Assembly (NCBI RefSeq): GCF_016803135.1
Contig: NZ_JAEVFE010000001.1
Coordinates: 186,001-250,000, forward strand
Source: Altererythrobacter sp. C41
GTDB lineage: Bacteria > Pseudomonadota > Alphaproteobacteria > Sphingomonadales > Sphingomonadaceae
Reading direction: 5' to 3'
Length of the DNA: 64,000 bases
This document shows, piece after piece, positions 3,579 through 24,706 of the stretch (position 1 is its first letter; every line of letters starts with the position of its first letter). A program made the position numbers and the translations under genes. The notes under the pieces are model-generated. The model did not search any database and was not told the origin of the DNA. It was given only the letters and a program-made list of their open reading frames with translations.

Positions 3579-5591
3579 ATGCCTAAAGTTACCGTAGACG
3601 GTCAGGAAATCGAGGTCCCCAACGGCGCGACCGTGTTGCAGGCGTGCGAGCTGGCGGGGAAGGAGATTCCGCGCTTCTGCTATCACGAGCGGCTCTCGAT
3701 CGCCGGCAACTGCCGCATGTGCCTGGTCGAAGTGAAGCCCGGGCCGCCCAAGCCGCAGGCGAGCTGCGCGCTGCCCGCTGCCGATGGGCAGGAGATCCGC
3801 ACCGACAGCCAGATGGTCAAGACCGCACGCGAGGGGGTGATGGAGTTCCTGCTCATCAACCACCCGCTCGACTGCCCGATCTGCGACCAGGGCGGCGAGT
3901 GCGACCTGCAGGACCAGGCGGTCGCCTACGGCCGCGGCGGCTCGCGCTATCACGAGAACAAGCGTGCGGTGACCGAGAAGTACATGGGCCCGCTGATCAA
4001 GACGATCATGACCCGCTGCATCCACTGCACCCGCTGCGTGCGCTTCTCCGAAGAGATCGCGGGCGTGGACGAGATCGGCGCGCTCTATCGCGGCGAGGAC
4101 ATGCAGATCACGACCTACCTCGAACACGCGGCCAAGCACGAGCTTTCCGCCAACGTGATCGACCTGTGCCCGGTCGGCGCGCTGACCAGCCGCCCCTATG
4201 CGTTCGAGGCGCGGCCGTGGGAGCTCAAGAAGACGCTCAGCATCGACGTCAGCGATGCGGTGGGCGCGAACATTCGCCTCGACAGCCGCGGGCGCGAGGT
4301 GATGCGGGCGCTGCCGCGCATCAACGACGACGTCAACGAAGAGTGGCTGAGCGACAAGGGCCGCTACATGGTCGATGGCCTTACGCGGCGCCGGCTCGAC
4401 CGGGTGTGGATCCGCAAGGGCGGGAAGCTCCAGCCGGCGAGCTGGGAAGACGCGTTCAAGGCGATCGCGAAGGCCAAGGCGGGCAGCAGCATTGCCGCAA
4501 TCGCCGGCGACCTGGTCGACTGCGAAACGATGTTCGCGGCCAAGAAGCTGCTCGGCGCGCTCGGTTCGACCCTGCTCGAAGGGCGGCAGACCGGGATGGA
4601 CTACCCGACCGACAATCTCGCGGCGGTGAATTTCAACTCGACCTTCGCGGGGATCGAGACGGCCGACGCGATCCTGATCGTCGGCAGCCACGTCCGCTGG
4701 GAAGCGGCTCTGGTGAACGTCCGTCTGCGCAAGGCGGTCAAGCGCGGAGCGAAGGTCTTCGTCGTCGGTCCGCGCTGGGAGACCACGTATCCGGCCGAGT
4801 TCCTGGGCGACGACGTGAGTGTGCTCGGCGATCTTCCCTCCGAAGTCGCGGAACTGTTCGAAAAGGCCGAGCGCCCGGCGGTGATCCTGGGTGCCGGCGG
4901 CCTCGCGGCGGGCGCTTTCCAGTCCGCACTCTCGCTCGCGCAGGGCTGGAGCAGGGAAGGGTGGAACGGCTTCAACGTCCTCCACACCTCCGCGTCGCGC
5001 ATGGGCGGGCTGATGCTCGGCTACGCGCAGAAGGGCGGCATTGCGGACGTGGTGAAGGCCGAGCCCAAAGTCGTGCTCGCGCTGGGTGCGGACGAGGTCG
5101 ACTGGTCGGCCTTCGGCAAGAGCCTCAAGGTCTATATCGGCCATCACGGCGACAAGGGCGCGCATGCGGCGGACATCATCCTCCCCGCGGCGAGCTACGC
5201 CGAGAAGGACGGCACGTACGTCAACACCGAAGGCCGCGTGCAGTTCGCCGAGAAGGCCGTCTTCGCGCCGGGCGATGCGCGCGAGGACTGGACGATCCTG
5301 CGCGCGCTTGCCGATGCGCTCGGCGTCGAGGTCGGCTTCGACAGCTTCGCCGAACTGCAGGCCGCGATGATCGCGGAAGTTCCCGCGCTGGGCGTCGAAG
5401 GCCTTGCCGACATTATGGGTCTTTCGGGGGGCAAGCTGCCGAAGGCCAAGGCCGCCAAGGCGAAGGGCTCGATCGCCTACCCGGTCAAGGACTTCTACCT
5501 GACAAACCCGATCGCCCGTGCCAGCGCCGTGATGCAGCGGTGCTCGGCCGAACTTCTCCACGGCGAGGAAATTCTGGAGGCGGCGGAATGA
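3579..5591 (+). CDS. nuoG: NADH-quinone oxidoreductase subunit G
   Basis: The 75-kDa iron-sulfur subunit of complex I, carrying electrons from NuoE/F towards NuoI. The N-terminal ferredoxin domain has Cys34, 45, 48 and 63; the His-Cys segment has H95, C99, C102 and C108; the [4Fe-4S] site has C147, C150, C153 and the cysteine of CPVGAL near residue 197. A molybdopterin-oxidoreductase-like domain follows. I chose ATG 3579 (670 residues) rather than ATG 3546, because a GAAAGG ribosome site lies at 3563-3568 and because the longer version would begin inside the palindromic repeat. Its end overlaps the region before the next small gene. Confidence 0.97.
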   Translation: MPKVTVDGQEIEVPNGATVLQACELAGKEIPRFCYHERLSIAGNCRMCLVEVKPGPPKPQASCALPAADGQEIRTDSQMVKTAREGVMEFLLINHPLDCPICDQGGECDLQDQAVAYGRGGSRYHENKRAVTEKYMGPLIKTIMTRCIHCTRCVRFSEEIAGVDEIGALYRGEDMQITTYLEHAAKHELSANVIDLCPVGALTSRPYAFEARPWELKKTLSIDVSDAVGANIRLDSRGREVMRALPRINDDVNEEWLSDKGRYMVDGLTRRRLDRVWIRKGGKLQPASWEDAFKAIAKAKAGSSIAAIAGDLVDCETMFAAKKLLGALGSTLLEGRQTGMDYPTDNLAAVNFNSTFAGIETADAILIVGSHVRWEAALVNVRLRKAVKRGAKVFVVGPRWETTYPAEFLGDDVSVLGDLPSEVAELFEKAERPAVILGAGGLAAGAFQSALSLAQGWSREGWNGFNVLHTSASRMGGLMLGYAQKGGIADVVKAEPKVVLALGADEVDWSAFGKSLKVYIGHHGDKGAHAADIILPAASYAEKDGTYVNTEGRVQFAEKAVFAPGDAREDWTILRALADALGVEVGFDSFAELQAAMIAEVPALGVEGLADIMGLSGGKLPKAKAAKAKGSIAYPVKDFYLTNPIARASAVMQRCSAELLHGEEILEAAE

Positions 5592-5594
5592 GTC

Positions 5595-5723
5595 ATGCTG
5601 GACTGGATCACGGACTTCCTATTCGGTTCGCTTCCGCTTCGCGTGCAGTTGGGATGTCTAGTGCTGTTCATAATTGCCGTGCTCGCGTTCCTTGCATGGG
5701 CCTACTGGCCGGAGGTCTGGTAG
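5595..5723 (+). CDS. very small membrane protein between nuoG and nuoH
   Basis: A 42-residue frame starting 4 bases after the nuoG stop and ending one base before the nuoH start. The sequence has a short amphipathic start ([16 protein letters not shown]), one long transmembrane helix (about residues 18-37, [20 protein letters not shown]) and ends PEVW. A competing frame starting at ATG 5588 is polar and unlike any small protein, so I prefer this one. No family is recognised. As with the other small genes in this operon, its position suggests involvement with the membrane arm of complex I. Confidence 0.65.
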
Positions 5724-5724
5724 C

Positions 5725-6783
5725 ATGACCGCCTTCTTCCAATCCCTCGGCATGACCTACGAGTGGGCGTGGTTCGTCGCCACGCTTGCCGGTGTGCTGC
5801 TGATCGCCCTGCCGCTGATGCTGGCGGTGGCGATGATCATCTATGCCGATCGCAAGATCTGGGCGGCGATGGCGCTGCGGCGCGGACCGAACGTGGTCGG
5901 GCCGTTCGGCCTGCTGCAGAGCTTCGCCGACGGCCTGAAGGTGTTCCTGCAGGAAACGATCATCCCTTCGGCTGCAAACAAGGGACTGTTCCTGATCGGC
6001 CCGATCGTGACCTTCACGGTGGCGCTGCTTGCCTGGGCGGTGATCCCGTTCGGGCCGGAAGCCGTACTGTCCGACATCAATATCGGCCTGCTCTACGTTC
6101 TCGCGATCAGTTCGCTCGGGGTCTACGGCGTGGTCGTCGCGGGCTGGGCGTCGAACTCGAAGTATCCGTTCTTCTCCGCCATGCGCGCCGCCGCGCAGAT
6201 GATCAGCTACGAAGTCTCTATCGGCTTCATCCTGATCTGCGTCGTGCTGTGGGCCGGCACGTTCAACCTCAACGACATCATCGAGGCGCAGCACGGCCAC
6301 GGCTTCGGTCTGGTCAACGGGTTCTTCTTCAACCTGCTGCTCTTCCCGATGTGGGTCATGTTCCTGATCTCGAGCCTCGCGGAAACCGCCCGCGCGCCGT
6401 TCGACCTCACGGAAGCGGAGAGCGAACTCGTCGCGGGCTATCAGACCGAGTATTCGTCGATGAGCTTCGCGCTCTTCTGGCTCGGCGAATATGCCAACGT
6501 CCTGCTGATGTGCGCGCTCAACGCGATCCTGTTCTTCGGGGGCTGGCTGCCGCCGCTGAACGTGGATCTGATCCCGTGGTTCAACATCCCGGGCTGGATC
6601 TGGCTGTTCGGCAAGATCTTCCTGTTCTTCTTCATCTTCAGCTGGGTGAAGGCCACCGTCCCGCGCTTCCGCTACGACCAGCTGATGCGTCTGGGCTGGA
6701 AGGTCTTCCTGCCGCTGAGCCTGCTGTTCGTGGTGCTTGTGAGCGGATGGCTGATGTTCACCCGTTACGGAGTCGCCGCATGA
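5725..6783 (+). CDS. nuoH: NADH-quinone oxidoreductase subunit H
   Basis: The membrane subunit (ND1 homologue) that links the peripheral arm to the proton-pumping arm and forms the entry of the quinone chamber. The 352-residue protein has about eight hydrophobic helices. Characteristic segments are [20 protein letters not shown] near the N-terminus, the acidic loop [20 protein letters not shown] that forms part of the E-channel, and [15 protein letters not shown] near the C-terminus. The ATG at 5725 follows the small upstream gene by one base; the upstream extension of the frame is not family-like. The stop overlaps the nuoI start (ATGA). Confidence 0.97.
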
Positions 6784-7265
6784 GCGTCGCCCATCTCATA
6801 AAGTCGTTCACCCTGTGGGAGTTCGTGAAGGCGCATGCCCTCACGCTGAAGTACTTCTTCAAGCCGAAGGTGACGATCAACTATCCGTTCGAGAAGAACC
6901 CGATCAGCCCGCGCTTCCGCGGCGAGCATGCGCTGCGCCGCTATCCCAACGGGGAAGAGCGCTGCATCGCGTGCAAGCTGTGCGAGGCGGTTTGCCCCGC
7001 GCAGGCGATCACCATCGAAAGCGAGCCGCGCGCCGACGGCAGCCGCCGTACCACGCGCTACGACATCGACATGACCAAGTGCATCTACTGCGGCTTCTGC
7101 CAGGAAGCGTGCCCGGTCGATGCGATCGTCGAAGGGCCGAACTTCGAGTTCTCCACGGAAACGCGTGAGGAGCTTCTCTACGACAAGGCGAAACTGCTGG
7201 CCAACGGGGACAAGTGGGAGCGTGCACTCGCTGCCAACCTTGAAGCCGATGCGCCCTACCGCTAG
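6780..7265 (+). CDS. nuoI: NADH-quinone oxidoreductase subunit I
   Basis: The 23-kDa ferredoxin-like subunit with two [4Fe-4S] clusters (N6a and N6b) that passes electrons from NuoG to NuoB. Both classical motifs are intact: [12 protein letters not shown] (C62, C65, C68, C72) and [12 protein letters not shown] (C101, C104, C107, C111). The length of 161 residues is normal for the alphaproteobacterial and mitochondrial (TYKY) type. The ATG overlaps the nuoH stop by 4 nt, indicating coupled translation. A 27-nt spacer with a CAGGGG ribosome site separates it from nuoJ. Confidence 0.98.
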
Positions 7266-7292
7266 GCGCCGCCGCAACGAGATTCAGGGGCC

Positions 7293-7916
7293 ATGATCCA
7301 GACCTTAGCCTTCTACCTTTTCGCGTTCCTCGTGGTCGCCAGCGGCGTCTTCACGATCATGGCGCGTAACCCGGTGCATTCGGTGCTGTGGCTGATCCTC
7401 GCGTTCTTCAACGCGGCGGGACTGATGGTCATCGTCGGTGCGGAGTTTATCGCCGCGCTGCTGGTGATCGTCTACGTCGGTGCGGTCGCGGTGCTGTTCC
7501 TGTTCGTGGTGATGATGCTCGACATCGATTTCGCCGAATTGCGCGCCGGGTTCGTGAAGAACTTCCCGCTCGGCATCGCGATTGCGCTCGTGCTGCTGGC
7601 CGAGCTGGTGCTCGGCATCGGCGCCTACCGTGCCGGAGCGATCAAACTCGGCGTGCCGGACGGCAGCGCGGCGCCGATGATGGACCGCAGCAATATCGAG
7701 AGTCTGGGCGCGGTGCTCTACGGCGAATACCTGTTCCTGTTCGAAACCGCGGGCCTGATCCTTCTGGTGGCGATGGTCGGCGCGATCGTGCTGACGCACC
7801 GCGAACAGCCTCAGGGCGCACGGGGTCACCAGAATATCGCCAAGCAGAACCGCCGCCGCCCGCACGAGGCGACCGAGATGAAGCGCCCCGACGTGGGCAA
7901 GGGGGTCGAGCTGTGA
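7293..7916 (+). CDS. nuoJ: NADH-quinone oxidoreductase subunit J
   Basis: The ND6 homologue of the complex I membrane arm. Five hydrophobic helices are visible, including the conserved stretch [20 protein letters not shown] in helix 3, which contains the pi-bulge region of this family. The 207-residue protein ends with a charged tail ([20 protein letters not shown] and on) that is longer than the E. coli one. The stop overlaps the GTG start of nuoK by 4 nt (GTGA). Confidence 0.96.
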
Positions 7917-16455: not shown

Positions 16456-16725
16456 ATGCAATGGACGTCGATTCTTGCGATCTACTTCATCGTCTGGGTG
16501 ATGAGCGCATTCTTCCTGTTGCCGTTCGGCGTTCGCACGCACGACGAACTCGGTCTCGAGAAGGTCCCGGGTCAGGCCGACAGCGCCCCGGCCAACTTCC
16601 GCCCCGGGCGCGTGGCGCTGCGCGCGACGATCCTTGCTGCAGTGCTGACCGGCCTCTTCGCGCTCAACTACGAGTATCGCTGGGTGGACGTCGACGACCT
16701 CGACGTCACCCGCCTATTCGCGTAG
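16456..16725 (+). CDS. DUF1467 family protein
   Basis: An 89-residue membrane protein with one helix at about residues 5-25 (SILAIYFIVWVMSAFFLLPF) and a second at about 54-70. The loop GVRTHDELGLEKVPGQADSAP is the typical DUF1467 block, a small family found in alphaproteobacteria and often placed after the nuo-birA-coaX-rnj run, as here. The function is unknown. It starts 4 bases after the RNase J stop. The last 12 bases overlap the end of the convergent coiled-coil gene on the other strand. Confidence 0.9.
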   Translation: MQWTSILAIYFIVWVMSAFFLLPFGVRTHDELGLEKVPGQADSAPANFRPGRVALRATILAAVLTGLFALNYEYRWVDVDDLDVTRLFA

Positions 16726-19338
16726 ACGCTTGATAGCCTGGGCGAGCGCGACGTAGAGCTTGCCCATGTCGGAACTGAGCAAGGTCACGCCGAGCGCATT
16801 GCCGTCGCGTGTCGACAGCATGGTCCGCAGCATTCCCTCGAAGTCCGCGACGTAACGGTTTACGTTTTCCTGGAAATCCGGCTCGTTGCTGTAGAGGCCG
16901 GCGATGTCCCGCGCCTCGGCCCTGTCGAGCAGACGCACCGCCCGGCGGGTGAAGATGCCGCGGTCGCCGCGCAGGTAGGATGCCCACGCGGTATCGGTCA
17001 CTTCCGTCGAAAGCGCCTTCGCGATGTCGATCGCGTTCGAATTGAGGCTTTCGGTGATCAGCGCCATGCGCCGCGCGAAATCGTTGTCGACCTGCTCCTC
17101 GGCGCGTTCGCGCGCCTGCACGACACGCGTTTCGAGGTTGGCGGCGAGTTCGTCCACCTTGGCGAGCTGGTCGCGGAGCTGGATGGCGGCCTGGCGGCTC
17201 GCGTCCGATGCTTTCGCGGCCGCTTTCTCGAGCTGACCGATCGACTGCTCGGCCTTCTCCCGCATGACTTCGTCGAGTGCTTGCGAGGTCTCGGTCCCCA
17301 CGCGCTCGGCAAGTTCGCGGATGCTCTCGCTCGCGCTCTCGCCGATCGCGGCCCGGGCGGAACGAGCTGCCGTTTCGAGCGCCTCGATGGCGTCGCGCAG
17401 GTCCGCGCGCGCCTTCTCGGCGACGGCAGTGCTGTCTTCTTCCAGGCCGGCGATCACGGCGCGCAGTTCGCCGACTTGCGCCACGTGCGCTTCGTTCGCC
17501 TGCGCGAACCGTTCGTGCAGGACTTCCACGTCTGCGATCGTCTCGCGGCCGGTGTCGCGGGCGCCGGCCACGTAGTCGGACAGCCGCGCACTGGTGACGT
17601 TCGCTTCGTCGAGCACGAGCTTGAGATCGCCCGCGCGCTCCTCGACCGACGCGAGCCGTCCTTCCGCTTCGCCGATGGCCAGGGGCAGATCCTCGCGCGA
17701 GTGCTGCGCGCTCGCCTGGAGCAGTTCGAGCAATCGCACGCTCGCCTCGGTGAGGGAGGCGACGGCTTCGTCCGTTCCGTGCAGTGTCGCGCGGCTTTCG
17801 GCGAGCTTGATTTCCAGGCGCTCGAGGCTCTGCGCCAACACCTGCTCGGTCTCCCCGCCGTGATGCGCGATCGCTTCGACTTCGGCGCGCAACTGCACCA
17901 GCCGCTCGGTCACTGTCTCACCCTTGCGTGCAAGTTCGTCGGTCTGCGCGATATGGGCCTCGCGCCGTTCGGCGATGGCCGCGTCGATCTCCGCGAGGCG
18001 CGACGCAAGCGCGTCGGTGTACTCGCGCTCCGCCTCGGCGAGGATCGCCTGACGCTCCGCGATCCGCTCCTGCAGGCGCTGGTCGCGTTCCGCGATACCG
18101 CGATCCACCGCTTCGGCTTCGACCTTGAGCGCGGCCAGCTTCTGATTGGCCGAGGCGAGGGCGTTGTCGTCGACCCCCTTGATGACCTCGATCGCTTCGT
18201 TGAGGCGCTGCTTCATCGCCTCGATCTGTTCGGCCCAGGTGCCGAGCGCGGCCTCTTCGCCTTCGCGCACCGCATTGCCGATGATCTTCGCCTCGTCGCG
18301 CAGACCGCCGAGGCGTGCACGAAGGGAAACGAGGGCTTCCTCTTCTTCCGACGCCAGCGACTCGTGTGTCGTGCGCAGTTCCGCGGCCAGCGAGTCGGCA
18401 CGGCGGCGCAGCGCCGCCAGCGTTTCCACTTCGCGGCCGTCGAGCTCGGTGCGGAACGTTTCGCTTTTCGTGCGGAGGGCGTCGAAACGCTCGGCGGTGA
18501 GGAGTTCGAGTTGATCGAGCTGTTCCCCGAACACCGTCAGGGCTTCCTCGATCCGGGATTCAAGAGTTCCGACCTGCCGCTCGCTCGCCTGCCCGAATTC
18601 GTTGAGCCGCTCGAAACCTCTCGTCAGTTCGGCGACGTGCTCGTGCGCGATCCGTCCGGCATTGCCGATCTGGTTGGAAACGTCGCGCGCGGAGTTTGCG
18701 ATGACCGGCAGATCGTCCCGCAATTTGTTCATGTTGGTCAGCGCGGTGGTGCTGACAGTTGCGAGCACTTCCACCTGCTGTCCGTTGTCCTGGACGAGCC
18801 CCTGAAGGCGGTCGGCGTGCGTCGAAAGCCGCTCGGTCGCAACCCGTCCGAGGGTGTCGAGCTCGCGTGACTGCGAGGCGAGGAACTCGCGCGCAAGGCT
18901 GAGCTCGCGGTTGATCGTGACCAGTCGGGTCTCCAGCGCGCGCGACTCGTGCGACAGCAAATGGGCGACATCGCCGAAGCGGCGCGCTTCATGCGTGCTG
19001 TTACGCGTTGCGAGCAGCCACAACACCGCCACCAGAAGAACCGGCACCGCCCATTGCGCCATCCAGGTCAGCCATTGCGCCGGGGGCGCACCCGCAAGCA
19101 TGGGCTCGCGGAAAATCCACACGAAGGCCGCTGTCCACGCAGCCGTCGCGCCCAGAGCAAGCACGGGGGCAAGCCATCGCATCCGCACGTCCGGTTCGGG
19201 ATCTTCGTCCCATTCCTCCTCGAACGCGGTATGATCGCCGATATCCGTCTCGATCCCGGCCGTTTCGACCTCGCTCGTGACTGGTTCGCTCCCCGCGTCG
19301 TCCGGCCCTATGGCCCTGATATTCGATCCTCCAGACAT
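16714..19338 (-). CDS. large membrane-anchored coiled-coil protein
   Basis: An 874-residue protein with an acidic N-terminal tail of about 50 residues, two transmembrane helices (about residues 55-75 and 90-110), and then nearly 650 residues of heptad-like, Ala/Glu/Arg-rich helix without proline breaks, dominated by segments such as ESRALETRLVTINRELSLAR. A compact C-terminal domain of about 110 residues (from TDTAWASYLRGDRGIF to the end) is probably globular. The layout suggests a membrane-bound cytoplasmic rod or tether. I recognise no named family; sphingomonads carry similar 'hypothetical' or apolipoprotein-like proteins. It is convergent with, and overlaps by 12 nt, the DUF1467 gene, and is divergent from the HPt-like gene. 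Confidence 0.85.
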   Translation of the reverse strand: MSGGSNIRAIGPDDAGSEPVTSEVETAGIETDIGDHTAFEEEWDEDPEPDVRMRWLAPVLALGATAAWTAAFVWIFREPMLAGAPPAQWLTWMAQWAVPVLLVAVLWLLATRNSTHEARRFGDVAHLLSHESRALETRLVTINRELSLAREFLASQSRELDTLGRVATERLSTHADRLQGLVQDNGQQVEVLATVSTTALTNMNKLRDDLPVIANSARDVSNQIGNAGRIAHEHVAELTRGFERLNEFGQASERQVGTLESRIEEALTVFGEQLDQLELLTAERFDALRTKSETFRTELDGREVETLAALRRRADSLAAELRTTHESLASEEEEALVSLRARLGGLRDEAKIIGNAVREGEEAALGTWAEQIEAMKQRLNEAIEVIKGVDDNALASANQKLAALKVEAEAVDRGIAERDQRLQERIAERQAILAEAEREYTDALASRLAEIDAAIAERREAHIAQTDELARKGETVTERLVQLRAEVEAIAHHGGETEQVLAQSLERLEIKLAESRATLHGTDEAVASLTEASVRLLELLQASAQHSREDLPLAIGEAEGRLASVEERAGDLKLVLDEANVTSARLSDYVAGARDTGRETIADVEVLHERFAQANEAHVAQVGELRAVIAGLEEDSTAVAEKARADLRDAIEALETAARSARAAIGESASESIRELAERVGTETSQALDEVMREKAEQSIGQLEKAAAKASDASRQAAIQLRDQLAKVDELAANLETRVVQARERAEEQVDNDFARRMALITESLNSNAIDIAKALSTEVTDTAWASYLRGDRGIFTRRAVRLLDRAEARDIAGLYSNEPDFQENVNRYVADFEGMLRTMLSTRDGNALGVTLLSSDMGKLYVALAQAIKRLRE

Positions 19339-19409
19339 GAGCGTCAGGCTATCACGAAAAGGGGGGGCTGAAACCCTGCTTTAACCAGACTTGCGATAGA
19401 CCGAGTGCA

Positions 19410-19718
19410 ATGGTCCACGAAAGCGGTGCCCTTGATGCCACGCTGGCTGCAGCGGCCGGCGACGATCCCGTCCTGATGGCCGAACTGCGTGCGGCTTTCG
19501 CAGACAGCCTGGGGCGGCAGATCGACCTGCTCGGTCGAGCGCGCTGCGACGGGAACTGGAACGTCGCCGCCTCGCGGCTGAAGGGACTGGCGGCGAGCTT
19601 TCACGCCGCGGCCCTCATCGAGCTTGCTGACGAGGCGATCGCGGCGGCTCCGGGCGAGCCGACCGTCCTGCGCAAGCTCACGGCGTTCATGCGCGATTTC
19701 TCCGCCGGGCGCAGCTGA
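19410..19718 (+). CDS. HPt-like protein lacking the phospho-accepting histidine
   Basis: A 102-residue, all-helical protein. The stretch NVAASRLKGLAASFHAAAL matches the core of histidine phosphotransfer (HPt) domains, normally AHxLKGxxxxxGA, but the histidine position is Ser and the following glycine is His. It therefore probably cannot carry a phosphoryl group in the usual way. The ATG at 19410 is 71 bp from the divergent coiled-coil gene, so a promoter should lie in that gap. It is followed by three plus-strand genes that include a histidine-kinase-like protein with a matching loss. Family assignment rests on motif resemblance only. Confidence 0.75.
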   Translation: MVHESGALDATLAAAAGDDPVLMAELRAAFADSLGRQIDLLGRARCDGNWNVAASRLKGLAASFHAAALIELADEAIAAAPGEPTVLRKLTAFMRDFSAGRS

Positions 19719-19791
19719 GCGCCCGACCGGCGCGCTTGGCACGAGCGCAAGCTCGGCTTAAACCTCCCCGCTTTCATGCGGGAGTGAGCAG

Positions 19792-20994
19792 TTGCGGGTT
19801 GCGATCCTGTCGGCGATCCATCCGGGCGGAGAAGACGCCGAGGCGGCCGTGCGCGGTCTGCTCACCGTCGCCGGCCGCAGCGTCGCCGCGCTTCAGCTCG
19901 ATCTTGCGCTGCGCCTGGGATGCGAGCGGATCGTATGCCTGGCCGAAGGTCTGGACGAAGGCGTTCTGCCCTTGCTTCACCGTGCAGAGCAGGGCGGGGC
20001 GACTTTCCACGCGCTGAGCAGCGCGCGTTCGCTTTCCGGCCTGGTGCGGGCGCAGGACGAACTTTTTCTCTTCGCCGAAGGTGTAGTGCCTGATCCGCTG
20101 GTAGTGGGGGAACTGCTGGGCGAACGTTCGGGCATCGTCGCCCTGCCGGCTGAGCCGGGCATCGAGGCCGGGTTCGAGCGAATCGACCGCGACCACGCCT
20201 GGGCCGGCGTTGCGCGCCTGCCGGGATCGGCGGTCGAGCGTCTGGTCGAAATGCCGTTCGAAGTCGACGCTGTGCCCGCCTTGCTGCGCGTCGGCCTGCA
20301 GACGGGCACGCGTATCGTACCGCTTCCGCCGTCACTAGTGACCGACAGACGCTGGGCCTTGCTGCGCAACGAGCAGCAGGCGCGTGCGTTCGAGGCCGCG
20401 TGGCTGAACCAGCGGGTCACGCTGTCCTCGTTCGCTGCCCCGGTGCATGCCTTGGCGGATCGGGCCGCAATGGTCCTGGCGCCGAGCATCCTGGCCCAGC
20501 GCGGCAAGGCGGCGCTTCCGATCGCGGGCGGTATCCTGGGGCTCGGTGGAGCGCTCGCCGCCGCGTGGTGGAAGTTGCCAGCGCTCGCCTTCGGATCGGC
20601 CGCGATCGGGGCCTTCCTGCTGCGCACGGGCGAAACGGTTGCCGCGTTTCTGAGCGAGGGCCGCCGGAGCGGCATGATCGCGCGCATCGCGCGTGCCCTG
20701 CCGGGCCTGGCGGTCGACGCAACCATTCTGGCGCTGGTCGGGGTGCTTGCGCCGGCAGGAGAGCGCGCGAGCTGGCTGTTTGCGGGCCTCACGCTGCTCT
20801 TCGCGCTGCGGATTGCCGGACATTCGCAAGTCGAATCGCTGGCGCGTCCGGCCTCGGATCGGGGGATTCTCGCGCTGGTGCTCGCAGTGTGTGCGGCGCT
20901 CGATCAAACTCTTGCGGGAATTCAGTTACTTGCGCTCGCGGTGCTGGCAGCGTTCTATCTCGTCCACGGGCGAGAGCGGATAACGCACGCTTAA
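19792..20994 (+). CDS. two-part membrane protein of unknown function
   Basis: A 400-residue protein. The first about 210 residues look like a soluble alpha/beta domain (RVAILSAIHPGGEDAEAAVR at the start, later DELFLFAEGVVPDPLVVGEL), reminiscent of nucleotidyltransferase-like domains but without a motif I can confirm. The last about 180 residues hold several hydrophobic helices. A CDP-alcohol phosphatidyltransferase signature (DGxxAR and partner aspartates) is not present. The start is TTG 19792, with GGGAG at about 19780-19784. It is spaced 73 nt from the HPt-like gene and 23 nt from the next gene. The function is unknown. Confidence 0.75.
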   Translation: MRVAILSAIHPGGEDAEAAVRGLLTVAGRSVAALQLDLALRLGCERIVCLAEGLDEGVLPLLHRAEQGGATFHALSSARSLSGLVRAQDELFLFAEGVVPDPLVVGELLGERSGIVALPAEPGIEAGFERIDRDHAWAGVARLPGSAVERLVEMPFEVDAVPALLRVGLQTGTRIVPLPPSLVTDRRWALLRNEQQARAFEAAWLNQRVTLSSFAAPVHALADRAAMVLAPSILAQRGKAALPIAGGILGLGGALAAAWWKLPALAFGSAAIGAFLLRTGETVAAFLSEGRRSGMIARIARALPGLAVDATILALVGVLAPAGERASWLFAGLTLLFALRIAGHSQVESLARPASDRGILALVLAVCAALDQTLAGIQLLALAVLAAFYLVHGRERITHA

Positions 20995-21017
20995 CTATAC
21001 CGCGCTAAGGCGGATGG

Positions 21018-21980
21018 ATGACCGAGTCCGGCACGAACAGCGCCTCGTATTCGCCGATCGAGGCGGTTCTCGCGGGCGAGCTCGCGCGCGGCGATCTCGT
21101 GCTCGGCACCGTCGGGCCGATGCTGGGCATGTTGCTCGCCAATCACGACAGTGCGTTGTTCAGCGACGAGATCGTTGCGAATGTGCGGGGAATGGGGCTT
21201 CACGTGGCACGGCAGACCCTGGTCGCGCAGGCGAATGCCGGCGGTCTCGAAGACCCGTTCGCCTTTGCCGCCGAGCATGGAGATGCGCTGGCCGAGAGCC
21301 TTGCGCAGAACCTGCAATTCCTCGGCCATTGCCACGCACTCGCGCTCGAACATCGCCTGGCCATGCAGTTGGAGCGGCGCAACGCGATCGATCCGGTGCT
21401 GTCGCCGCTCCTTCAATCGCTGATCGCGTCGTCCGACACGGACACCGCGCAGCTAGCCATGGCGCTTCTCGCCGCGCAGGCGCGTTTCGTCCAGCAGCAG
21501 CGCAGGGTGGAGCTGCCGCTGGCGGAACTGCCGCCGCCGCTGTTCGAGCACGCCCTTTCCACATGGCGTGCGCAGGCCGGCGGCACTGACGAAAACGCGA
21601 TCGAGCAGGCGGGCAAGCGCCTGCGTGACGCTTACGACCCGCAAGCTACGCGCCTCGCCTTGCTCGAACGGGCAGCCGGGGCAGTCGGAGACGGGATGAA
21701 GGCGGCGCTTTCCATCGGCCATGCCGGGGCCGCCTTGTTCCTCGCGGCGCTCGCGCTGGCGACTGGCCAGAACCGCGATCTGGTGGCCGTGGCGACCAAC
21801 GAAAGCCAGGTCGGCCGACTGGCGCTCGCGCTCCGCGCTGCCGGGCTCAAGCCCGAGCAGATTGCCGAGCAGTTCGTTCTCATCCATCCCGGCATCACTC
21901 TGCCCGCCGCATTCGACACGCTGCGCGCCGATCGCGCTGCGGCGATCCTTGCGGCGTCGGACCGGCAGGTCCTGGGTTGA
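21018..21980 (+). CDS. alpha-helical protein of unknown function
   Basis: A 320-residue protein predicted to be almost entirely helical, with repeated Ala/Leu-rich amphipathic segments such as DTAQLAMALLAAQARFVQQQ. There is no signal peptide; one hydrophobic stretch (IGHAGAALFLAALALATG, near residue 235) is too short and small-residue-rich to call a membrane helix. It may belong to the helical DUF2336-like group, but I cannot show that from sequence alone. It lies 23 nt after the membrane-protein gene and its stop is 4 nt before the kinase-like gene, so the genes are probably co-transcribed. Confidence 0.7.
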   Translation: MTESGTNSASYSPIEAVLAGELARGDLVLGTVGPMLGMLLANHDSALFSDEIVANVRGMGLHVARQTLVAQANAGGLEDPFAFAAEHGDALAESLAQNLQFLGHCHALALEHRLAMQLERRNAIDPVLSPLLQSLIASSDTDTAQLAMALLAAQARFVQQQRRVELPLAELPPPLFEHALSTWRAQAGGTDENAIEQAGKRLRDAYDPQATRLALLERAAGAVGDGMKAALSIGHAGAALFLAALALATGQNRDLVAVATNESQVGRLALALRAAGLKPEQIAEQFVLIHPGITLPAAFDTLRADRAAAILAASDRQVLG

Positions 21981-21984
21981 ACCC

Positions 21985-23373
21985 ATGAACGCGCACTCCT
22001 CCAGCTATCTCGCACGCGGGCGGACCAACGCGGACGATCACCTGATCGAAGCCGACGAGATGATCGCCGCCTTGCAGCGGAGTTGCGGGGGCGAGATTCC
22101 CGGCATGCTTGCGGTGCCGGCGTTGCTCGAGAGGGTGCGCCAGGCACGTATCGCCGGTACCCGCATTAGCGGCGCGATCGAGGCGGTCGGGGGTGAGGAC
22201 GTCATCCACGCCTGGGTGGAAATCTTTCCGCACTCCGGAAGCGAGGCGGGCTGCTCCATCGGCATCGCGGACTGGCAGGTATCCCCCGCCGCGCGAGACG
22301 ACGATGCACAGGCTGCGGCCCGGCATCTGGAGATAGAGCGCAGCGTGGCCGATCTGTGGGCGCGACTCGACCCCGTGCAAGGTGTGCTGGCGGTGGAAGC
22401 GCGCGCGCCGGATCTCGCCGCCCTCGCTCTTCGCATCGGACAGGGCGCGGGGAGACCCTGGACCGATTTCGTCGAGCTGCCCGACGCAGTGCACGAGCAG
22501 CCGATGCACTGGCGCCTGCTCGGCGGCCTGGCGGTCCGGGTGCCGGAATCGCCGCGCGAATGGACCGTGACCCTGGTGCCCCTCGGAGGACCCGAGCCTG
22601 GGCAATCGGGATTCGAACTCTATCTCGCATCGGACGCGGTCCTTCCCAACGCGGAAACGCCAGCCGATGCCGAACCCGCCGGCCCTCCCGCAACGCATCT
22701 GATCGGGCGAAATCTCGCGCCTGTGCTGCGTCAGCCGATCGCGCGGATCATCGCCAATGCGGAAACGATCCGCACCCGGCTCGCCGGGCCGCTCGCCGAG
22801 GAGTACAGCAACTACGCGGCCGATATCGCGGCCGCGGGCCAGCATCTTCTGGCACTGATCGAAGACCTGTCCGATCTTGAAGTCGTCGAAGCGGAAGGTT
22901 TCGTCACCGCCCCCGACGAGATCGATCTCGGCGACGTCGCCCGCCGCGCCGCGGGGATCCTGACAGTCCGCGCGAAGGAGAAGGGGATTGCGCTGACCGC
23001 GCCGCCTGCCGGCGCGTCGGTGCCTGTGGTGGCGGAATTCCGCCGTGTCCTGCAGATCCTGCTCAACCTCGTCGGCAACGCGATCCGCTATTCGCCCGAA
23101 GGCTCGCAGATCCGACTGGAGCTTTCAGGCGAGGGGGAGAAGGCCCGCGTGAGCGTGATCGACGACGGGCCGGGGCTCGACAAGGCGCAGCAGGCGCGGG
23201 TGTTCGAGAAGTTCGAACGGCTCGGTCGCAGCGGCGACGGGGGATCGGGGCTCGGGCTCTACATCTCGCGTCGCCTGGCGCGAGCGATGGGCGGCGATCT
23301 TACCGTGGAAAGCGAGCCCGGTAATGGCGCGAGCTTCACGCTCGAGCTGCCCGGCCACAAGCCTCCGGAATAG
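21985..23373 (+). CDS. histidine-kinase-like protein without the H-box histidine
   Basis: A 462-residue cytoplasmic protein with a sensory N-terminus of about 230 residues, a dimerisation (HisKA-like) helix pair and a complete HATPase domain. The ATP-lid motifs are intact: N box NLVGNAIRYSPEG, G1 DDGPGLD, F box FEKFERL and G2 GSGLGLYI. The H box that normally reads SHELRTPL reads APVLRQPI, so the phospho-accepting histidine is Pro. It may act as an ATP-binding scaffold, like Caulobacter DivL, whose histidine is replaced by Tyr. I chose ATG 21985, four bases after the previous stop. There is no membrane helix and no adjacent response regulator. Confidence 0.85.
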   Translation: MNAHSSSYLARGRTNADDHLIEADEMIAALQRSCGGEIPGMLAVPALLERVRQARIAGTRISGAIEAVGGEDVIHAWVEIFPHSGSEAGCSIGIADWQVSPAARDDDAQAAARHLEIERSVADLWARLDPVQGVLAVEARAPDLAALALRIGQGAGRPWTDFVELPDAVHEQPMHWRLLGGLAVRVPESPREWTVTLVPLGGPEPGQSGFELYLASDAVLPNAETPADAEPAGPPATHLIGRNLAPVLRQPIARIIANAETIRTRLAGPLAEEYSNYAADIAAAGQHLLALIEDLSDLEVVEAEGFVTAPDEIDLGDVARRAAGILTVRAKEKGIALTAPPAGASVPVVAEFRRVLQILLNLVGNAIRYSPEGSQIRLELSGEGEKARVSVIDDGPGLDKAQQARVFEKFERLGRSGDGGSGLGLYISRRLARAMGGDLTVESEPGNGASFTLELPGHKPPE

Positions 23374-23419: not shown

Positions 23420-24706
23420 TCAGCGCTTGTCGAGCGGAACGTAGTCGCGCTCGGTCGGCCCGGTGTAGAGCTGACGCGGGCGGCCGATGACCTGGCCGGG
23501 ATCGGAAATCATCTCGTTCCACTGCGCGACCCACCCGACCGTGCGGGCCAGCGCGAAGAGGGCGGTGAACATGGTGGTCGGGAAGCCGATCGCCGAGAGG
23601 ATGATGCCCGAGTAGAAGTCCACGTTCGGGAACAGCTTCTTTTCCTTGAAGTAATCATCGCTAAGCGCGATTTCCTCGAGCCGGAGCGCGGTCTCGAAGA
23701 CCGGATCGGTGACCTTGAGCGCCTCGAACACCTCGCGCACCGTCTTTTGCATCACCGTCGCGCGCGGATCGTAGTTCTTATAGACGCGGTGACCGAAGCC
23801 CATCAGGCGGAACGGGTCGTTCTTGTCCTTGGCGCGCTCGATGTAGTGCGGAATGCGGTCGGGCGTGCCGATCTCGTGCAGCATGTTGAGCGCTGCCTCG
23901 TTCGCGCCGCCGTGCGCCGGGCCCCAAAGGCAGGCGATGCCCGCTGCGATGCAGGCAAAAGGATTGGCGCCCGAGGAACCGGCGAGCCGGACGGTCGAGG
24001 TCGAGGCGTTCTGCTCGTGATCGGCGTGGAGGATGAAGATCCGGTCCATCGCCTTTTCGACCGCCGGGTGCAGCTCGTATTCCTCGGCCGGAACGCCGAA
24101 CGTCATGCGCAGGAAGTTGCCGGTGTAGCTCAGGTCGTTCTGCGGATAGAGGAACGGCTGACCGACCGAGAACTTATAGGCCATCGCCGCGATCGTCGGC
24201 ATCTTCGCGATCAGGCGGTGGCTGGAAATCTTGCGATGCTCGGGATCCGAGATGTCGGTACTGTCGTGATAGAACGCCGACAGCGCGCCAACGACGCCGC
24301 ACATGATCGCCATCGGGTGGGCGTCGCGGCGGAAACCGCGATAGAACGTCGCAAGCTGCTCGTGCAGCATCGTGTGGCGGGTGATCGTGTAGTTGAAGTC
24401 GTCGAGTTCGACCTGCGACGGCAGTTCGCCATTCAGCAGCAGGTAGGCGACTTCCATGAAGCTCGAATGTTCGGCGAGCTGCCCGATCGGGTAGCCGCGG
24501 TGGAGCAGAACGCCTTCCTCGCCGTCGATATAGGTCAGCGCGCTTTCGCAACTGGCGGTCGACTTGTAACCGGGGTCGAAGGTGAAAGCGCCCGTGCTGC
24601 CGTAGAGCTTGCGGATGTCGACGACGTCCGGGCCCACGCTCCCCTGCAATACGGGGAATTCATGGGTCTGGCCGCCCAGTTCGAGTTTCGCCTGCTTGTC
24701 CGCCAA
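23420..24706 (-). CDS. gltA: citrate synthase
   Basis: Condenses acetyl-CoA with oxaloacetate as the entry step of the TCA cycle. The 428-residue length and sequence fit the type II (hexameric, NADH-regulated) enzyme of Gram-negative bacteria. Active-site motifs are visible: [22 protein letters not shown] with the catalytic histidine, and [14 protein letters not shown]. The gene starts at TTG 24706, with a strong GAGGAG ribosome site seven bases upstream (plus-strand 24714-24719). It follows gltX by 21 bp on the same strand and probably shares its transcript. Confidence 0.98.

Follow-up and report, generated by a model that had tools for sequence, protein, structure and literature searches.

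Between positions 19410 and 23373 of the window analysed here, a 64,000-nt stretch of Altererythrobacter sp. C41 (contig NZ_JAEVFE010000001.1, positions 186,001-250,000 of the forward strand), lie four plus-strand open reading frames separated by intergenic gaps of 73, 23 and 4 bases, as an initial annotation of this DNA had described. The first (19410-19718) codes for a 102-residue protein resembling histidine-containing phosphotransfer (HPt) proteins, the second (19792-20994, with a TTG start) for a membrane protein of 400 residues that we call P2, the third (21018-21980) for an all-helical protein of 320 residues, and the fourth (21985-23373) for a kinase-like protein of 462 residues when counted from the ATG at 21985, the open frame holding further starts before it, the earliest at 21721. 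Beyond what the initial annotation covered, a gene on the minus strand (16714-19338), divergent from the HPt gene, also belongs to the locus; it encodes an 874-residue protein resembling TipN, the new-pole marker of Caulobacter. The HPt-like and the kinase-like proteins both lack the phosphorylatable histidine, the respective sites being occupied by a serine (Ser55, codon 19572-19574) and a proline (Pro246, codon 22720-22722), and are referred to below as the pseudo-HPt and the pseudo-kinase.

Two samples of relatives inform on the conservation of this arrangement: a kinase-centred set of 41 loci from the window's family, collected around orthologues of the kinase, and an HPt-motif set of 80 loci out of at least 584 relatives, which was retrieved through motifs of the HPt itself, is biased towards HPt-bearing loci and overlaps the sampled-genome set. 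The genes for the TipN-like protein, the HPt, P2, the helical protein and the kinase occur in the same order and orientation in 28 of the 41 kinase-centred loci, and in 69 of the 80 HPt-motif loci this order continues into the citrate synthase gene, gltA. The other HPt-motif loci have the five genes followed by one for RNase J (2/80), the five genes alone (2/80; the names RNase J and citrate synthase come from Pfam matches), or miss a member (7/80), P2 being the one lacking in L288; the cluster reaches or nears the end of the fetched stretch in L247, L260, L262, L272, L300 and L310. That the genes stay together across Sphingomonadales, a point which the initial annotation wished to have checked, holds within this clade and not across the order as a whole. 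Since the complete order recurs in 28 of 41 loci and histidine-less domains are rare (a 2025 survey puts the histidine as missing from 0.9% of the domains in both the HisKA and the Hpt family; PMC12632262), the cluster is more than a chance association; the portions of that survey at hand name no such paired locus.

Selection on all five genes is purifying. Compared with the window's sequences, the ratio of nonsynonymous to synonymous substitution rates (dN/dS; 4 to 6 genus relatives per gene) is 0.08-0.18 for the HPt, 0.10-0.30 for P2, 0.06-0.29 for the helical protein, 0.09-0.26 for the kinase and 0.06-0.15 for the TipN-like protein.

Two phosphorelay proteins without their histidines

In the pseudo-HPt, AAS55RLKG takes the place of the usual AHxLKG, which upholds the earlier reading of an HPt-like protein devoid of its histidine. 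Searched alone, the window protein has no Pfam match, and Pfam and NCBIfam together return nothing at a meaningful E-value for it, for P2 or for the helical protein. Pfam Hpt matches are found in 13 of its 31 orthologues when E-values up to 1 are considered (best 4e-4), and all seven deeper syntenic homologues score above the Pfam Hpt cut-off. The histidine is absent from 30 of the 31 orthologues (the exception being L125) and from 79 of the 80 HPt-motif loci (the exception being L254, from Pontixanthobacter rizhaonensis); the lysine or arginine of the LKG motif is kept in 79 of 80 (68 K, 11 R). Just before the lost site stands a motif, R43-A-R-C-D-G-N-W50 in the window, whose general form, R[AS]R[CS]D[AG]NW, is present in 31 of 34 histidine-less HPts versus none of 8 histidine-bearing ones in the sampled-genome set. 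Its presence in all 80 HPt-motif loci proves nothing, as that set was fetched partly with the RCD-NW motif itself. A profile comparison of the HPt with the kinase showed no relation (E 0.8).

The window kinase scores above the Pfam cut-offs for both HisKA and HATPase_c (1.9e-28 for the latter). It has no transmembrane-like segment and is made of a variable N-terminal half (residues 1-238), a dimerization and histidine phosphotransfer (DHp) domain and an ATP-binding domain. Its H box reads LAP246VLRQPI, where usual kinases have MSHELRTPL, and its N, G1 and G2 boxes are intact; the initial annotation was therefore right about the missing histidine, but the protein is only half a pseudo-kinase, its ATP-binding motifs being retained. 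The N box, DxGxG and G[ST]GLG are each found in 74 of the 74 readable kinases of the HPt-motif set, and a damaged G1 box is seen in L126 of the wider kinase set. The histidine is absent from all 74 readable kinases (one of 75 being cut off) and from 40 of the 41 kinase-centred loci, L132 being the sole exception. A proline occupies the site in 73 of the 74 and in 26 of the 41; across the 41 loci the site carries 12 different letters, the variation lying among the deeper histidine-less members. The acidic residue that follows the site is lost too, being replaced by V, A or I in 74/74, with no E or D in any of the 41. Mean pairwise identity between pseudo-kinases (800 random pairs of 75 sequences) reaches 72% in the DHp domain, 68% in the ATP-binding domain and 43-44% in the N-terminal half, and the DHp value equals the 72% of canonical relatives (all pairs of 18).

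The companion proteins and the divergent promoter region

P2 and the helical protein, given as unknown by the initial annotation, both turn out to have relatives. The description of P2 as a two-part membrane protein agrees with hydropathy and with its AlphaFold model (mean pLDDT 92.3), in which a nucleotidyltransferase-like N-terminal domain is joined to a CDP-alcohol-phosphotransferase-like membrane domain. This model matches the IPCT-DIPPS bifunctional membrane protein of Archaeoglobus (PDB 4mnd) with a Z of 22.5 over 360 of 400 residues (root-mean-square deviation 6.6), five Z units over the next rows. The two-domain fold is common to both proteins, whereas P2 is without the catalytic signatures: neither the full CDP-alcohol phosphotransferase pattern nor the nucleotidyltransferase loop pattern occurs in any of 129 P2 relatives, the window protein included. 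Judging by its predicted structure and the loss of these motifs, P2 is a degenerate IPCT-DIPPS-type enzyme. DGKLAR is left in three of the 129 relatives (L133, L200 and L201), the same three that score above the Pfam CDP-OH_P_transf cut-off, so that working-looking relatives of P2 do exist, and these three are possibly still active enzymes.

The helical protein was correctly described as such, its model (mean pLDDT 89.6) containing no strand. A sequence search found no solved relative, and a fold search gave no match with a Z of at least 5 (best 4.9), from which a new fold can be neither claimed nor denied. The window protein has no match to DUF2336 (PF10098), a family matched by 6 of the 32 members of its alignment (best 4.3e-63), and comparison of its profile with canonical DUF2336 profiles from relatives gives an E of 1.1e-4 and a probability of 56 over 192 columns. 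Homology is further supported by the same place that both occupy upstream of the kinase, and on this profile and positional evidence the helical protein is probably a diverged DUF2336.

The TipN-like protein has two transmembrane-like N-terminal segments (residues 57-76 and 90-112, by hydropathy), a long middle stretch that appears from its sequence to be coiled-coil-like, and a conserved C-terminal domain, the last 120 residues having matches in 56 of the 142 genomes sampled from the class. Its architecture is like that of Caulobacter TipN, which has two N-terminal transmembrane domains and a large C-terminal coiled coil (PMC9178275). One candidate instance of the arrangement, L160, was rejected, the kinase beside its TipN-like gene being a hybrid kinase with its histidine.

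The 71-base divergent promoter region between the TipN-like and HPt genes contains a conserved element, [TG]AAA-N7-TTAAC (19370-19385, plus strand), which occurs once in the window and is found in 69 of 80 sequences (79 HPt-motif loci and the window), against 0.035 expected by mononucleotide shuffling. Part of this conservation reflects common descent, as related upstream sequences also share the bases flanking the element. Among the seven deeper HPts, a similar element was seen in L325 only. The CtrA box is TTAA-N7-TTAA, and the spacing of the element resembles it; a CtrA-like half-site arrangement would place the locus in the cell-cycle regulon. The exact box is present in 4 of the 80 only, too few for the region to be called a CtrA-binding promoter.

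Ancestry and possible order of loss

The nearest relatives found of the pseudo-kinase are DUF2336-linked PAS histidine kinases, which occur in other families of this order. Twenty loci were fetched around the kinases that matched best beyond the core set; one is from G012, of the window's family, and the others are from 19 of the 39 genomes sampled in other families. In 19 of these loci the gene just before the kinase, in the same orientation, is of DUF2336 type, and in the twentieth the contig ends. These kinases differ from the pseudo-kinase in retaining SHEL[RK]TP (20/20), and two PAS matches were found in the one member scanned (L177); no TipN-like gene beyond one weak match was seen in the 20 stretches. 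The window's own family has four members that keep this motif: L174 from G012, already counted among the 20, and in addition L203, L204 and L212. Whether the losses are common to all orthologues was the other point to be checked; they are so for nearly all of the clade and not for the order, since kinases of other families, along with these four, keep the histidine. Inside the clade, neither scattered gene order nor canonical histidines in most orthologues were found, the two outcomes that the initial annotation had named as telling against it. As a side observation on L174, its canonical kinase frame (5167-7872) runs without a stop into further sequence, which we take to be ArsR-like and methyltransferase-like; the fused frame is possibly an assembly error.

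A kinase tree of 66 rows was built with L213, a general histidine kinase, as outgroup, and with L185 left out as cut off. An earlier tree held the columns of the phosphorylation site; in the tree repeated without them, the 43 rows labelled histidine-less (L132 among them) fall on one side of a single branch (support 98/90), a split recovered in 98% of 200 bootstrap trees. From this topology the kinase apparently lost its histidine once. The branches of L198, L126, L213, L181 and L132 are long, and their exact places are therefore unsure.

Next to the TipN-like gene, and divergent from it, stand seven deeper HPts, five from other families (L207 and L323-L326) and two from the window's family (L205 and L206), and all seven have the histidine; from this distribution, which extends to further families of Sphingomonadales, the placement of an HPt beside a TipN-like gene is old. 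In the present clade, this HPt and the kinase share one locus with P2. The genome of L206, G010, already has a histidine-less kinase (L198). Among 39 genomes in which both sites could be read, tallied by hand and related to one another, both histidines are lost in 33, only that of the kinase in two (G010 and G039), only that of the HPt in none, and both are kept in four (G045, G064, G068 and G080). The joint states fit a loss of the kinase histidine first and of the HPt histidine after. Two further genomes, G075 (L326) and G096 (L324), have an HPt with its histidine, and G109 has a histidine-less one (L154).

The docking-module reading and rival explanations

The pseudo-kinase and the pseudo-HPt probably act through binding and not through phosphate transfer, since both histidines have been lost and yet the genes are kept together, under selection, beside the TipN-like gene. 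Our preferred reading, put forward tentatively, is that phosphorelay parts gave rise here to a docking module which responds to nucleotides, has abandoned phosphotransfer and is tied to the TipN-like protein. ATP and an N-terminal sensory input would set the shape of the pseudo-kinase, and its DHp bundle, together with the pseudo-HPt, would dock on receiver domains belonging to a genuine phosphorelay, such as those of DivK, CckA or other cell-cycle receivers. Such receivers would be read or sequestered without phosphate transfer, in a way comparable to the reading of DivK~P by DivL. The membrane pseudo-enzyme P2 and the TipN-like protein would anchor the module at the membrane or the new pole, with the DUF2336-like protein as a possible adaptor and a polar hub as the presumed site of docking. 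The gene content and the losses from which this scheme starts are read directly from the genomes. Its binding and its polarity are what we infer from them, and the scaffold role proposed by the initial annotation is a plausible conjecture. The boldest version of the scheme, in which an arm of sensor kinase and HPt gave up phosphorylation and was rebuilt as a nucleotide-gated cell-pole binding machine, retained throughout Erythrobacter, Novosphingobium and relatives, with the lipid-synthase-like P2 as membrane anchor, the TipN-like protein as landmark, and the kinase histidine lost first with that of the HPt following, we consider doubtful.

Several observations weigh against a single docking module. 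At least one of the five genes is missing near the kinase in 13 of the 41 kinase-centred loci (contig ends included), and the HPt of G016, G047 and G049 is found at another place, next to the TipN-like gene, so that the parts of the locus need not act as one complex. In eight genomes of the window's family (L194-L197 and L199-L202) a P2 relative stands beside the TipN-like gene, with no orthologous kinase found in these genomes; P2 is perhaps a companion of the TipN-like gene and not of the kinase. No receiver partner was noticed among the four genes of the cluster, the likeness to Caulobacter TipN is at the level of architecture only, and the literature searched, outside of which most subscription papers lay, contains no mention of DUF2336. 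The exceptions to the histidine losses also belong here. The HPt of L125 retains its histidine and narrowly misses the motif (SRSDGNW), and that of L254 has both the histidine and the motif (R-S-R-C-D-A-N-W), which means that the two are not mutually exclusive. The kinase of L132, inside the histidine-less clade, has a histidine at the aligned site in an HSFKPS context, probably an exception by chance.

Such stray histidines (in the HPts of L125 and L254 and the kinase of L132), together with the varied residue at the kinase site among the deeper histidine-less members, are what one would point to if the losses were simply decay, in dying genes carried along. We rejected decay on the dN/dS values, which range from 0.06 to 0.30 against genus relatives, and the order conserved in 69 of 80 loci, the proline in 73 of 74 kinases and the conserved HPt motif likewise make it hardly credible. 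A phosphatase acting on a response regulator is very unlikely as well: although the conserved histidine contributes to the phosphatase activity of HisKA proteins without being essential for it (PMC12632262), the acidic residue after it, present in the SHE of relatives, is gone from the pseudo-kinases (V, A or I in 74/74, no E or D in 41/41).

The pseudo-kinase could instead be a partner subunit, forming a heterodimer with a catalytic paralogue and tuning its activity with no reading of receivers. The genome has 21 HATPase_c places, so partners may exist. The DHp and ATP-binding domains are conserved, and there is a precedent in Corynebacterium, where the pseudokinase ChrS, whose ATP domain is broken, promotes signalling through its paralogue HrrS, with which it forms heterodimers in two-hybrid assays (PMC9491836). 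This explanation leaves the parallel loss in the HPt unaccounted for, and no partner kinase is seen in the locus; we regard it as unlikely. The degeneracy of a third partner, the IPCT-DIPPS-type protein, the TipN-like neighbour and the weakly conserved N-terminal half of the kinase (43-44%) would suit yet another role, in which the parts are folded building blocks for a structural function at the pole or membrane, apart from two-component signalling. The retention of the ATP motifs in 74/74 kinases and of the LKG lysine or arginine in 79/80 HPts suggests, however, that binding of nucleotide and of partners remains important, and a purely structural role does not seem likely to us.

For the docking module, the closest published mechanism is that of DivL, an alphaproteobacterial protein of HisKA/HATPase type without the phosphorylatable histidine, which binds DivK~P specifically, with help from PAS domains, and is reported to lack both kinase and phosphatase activity (PMC4211667). 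DivL has a tyrosine, which has been replaced by histidine in a Y550H variant, at the site where the window kinase has a proline, and the latter falls among DUF2336-linked kinases and has a pseudo-HPt encoded nearby. A DivL-like kinase with SYEFRTPL is present in the same genome (L334, G000:C1:500953-501279, with one TGA inside); this tyrosine-type kinase elsewhere in the genome led us to reject the idea that the pseudo-kinase serves as the group's DivL. The pseudo-HPt resembles, by description, the plant pseudo-HPts AHP6/PHP, non-phosphorylatable members of the HPt family that negatively regulate a phosphorelay; these are plant proteins, and no pseudo-kinase partner is mentioned for them in the accessible sections of the source (PMC12115143). 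Both parallels are analogies. The locus belongs with the pseudo two-component proteins and does not form a new class. The literature searched held no match for Sphingomonadales histidine kinases combined with pseudokinases and no publication on TipN with Sphingomonadales; for pseudo-HPts, the matches listed all have plant subjects.

Individual pseudo-kinases, DivL for one, have been described before; a conserved kinase-HPt pair in which both histidines are lost amounts to a natural experiment on these folds minus their chemistry. Relatives in which both histidines persist at loci that can still be recognised make it possible to test directly in which order they were lost and with what effect on function. 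If the link with the TipN-like protein is true, the locus would be a pointer to cell-pole control in sphingomonads.

Downstream of the cluster, the convergent neighbour (23420-24706, minus strand) is a citrate synthase gene (Pfam Citrate_synt, 4.9e-138), which probably lies outside the system and whose linkage to it may be a coincidence. In Caulobacter, a citrate synthase with a non-enzymatic role in the cell cycle was found in a tipN-linked screen (PMC7083601). The gene is downstream in 71 of the 80 HPt-motif loci, within 0.9 kb of the kinase in 69 of these 71.

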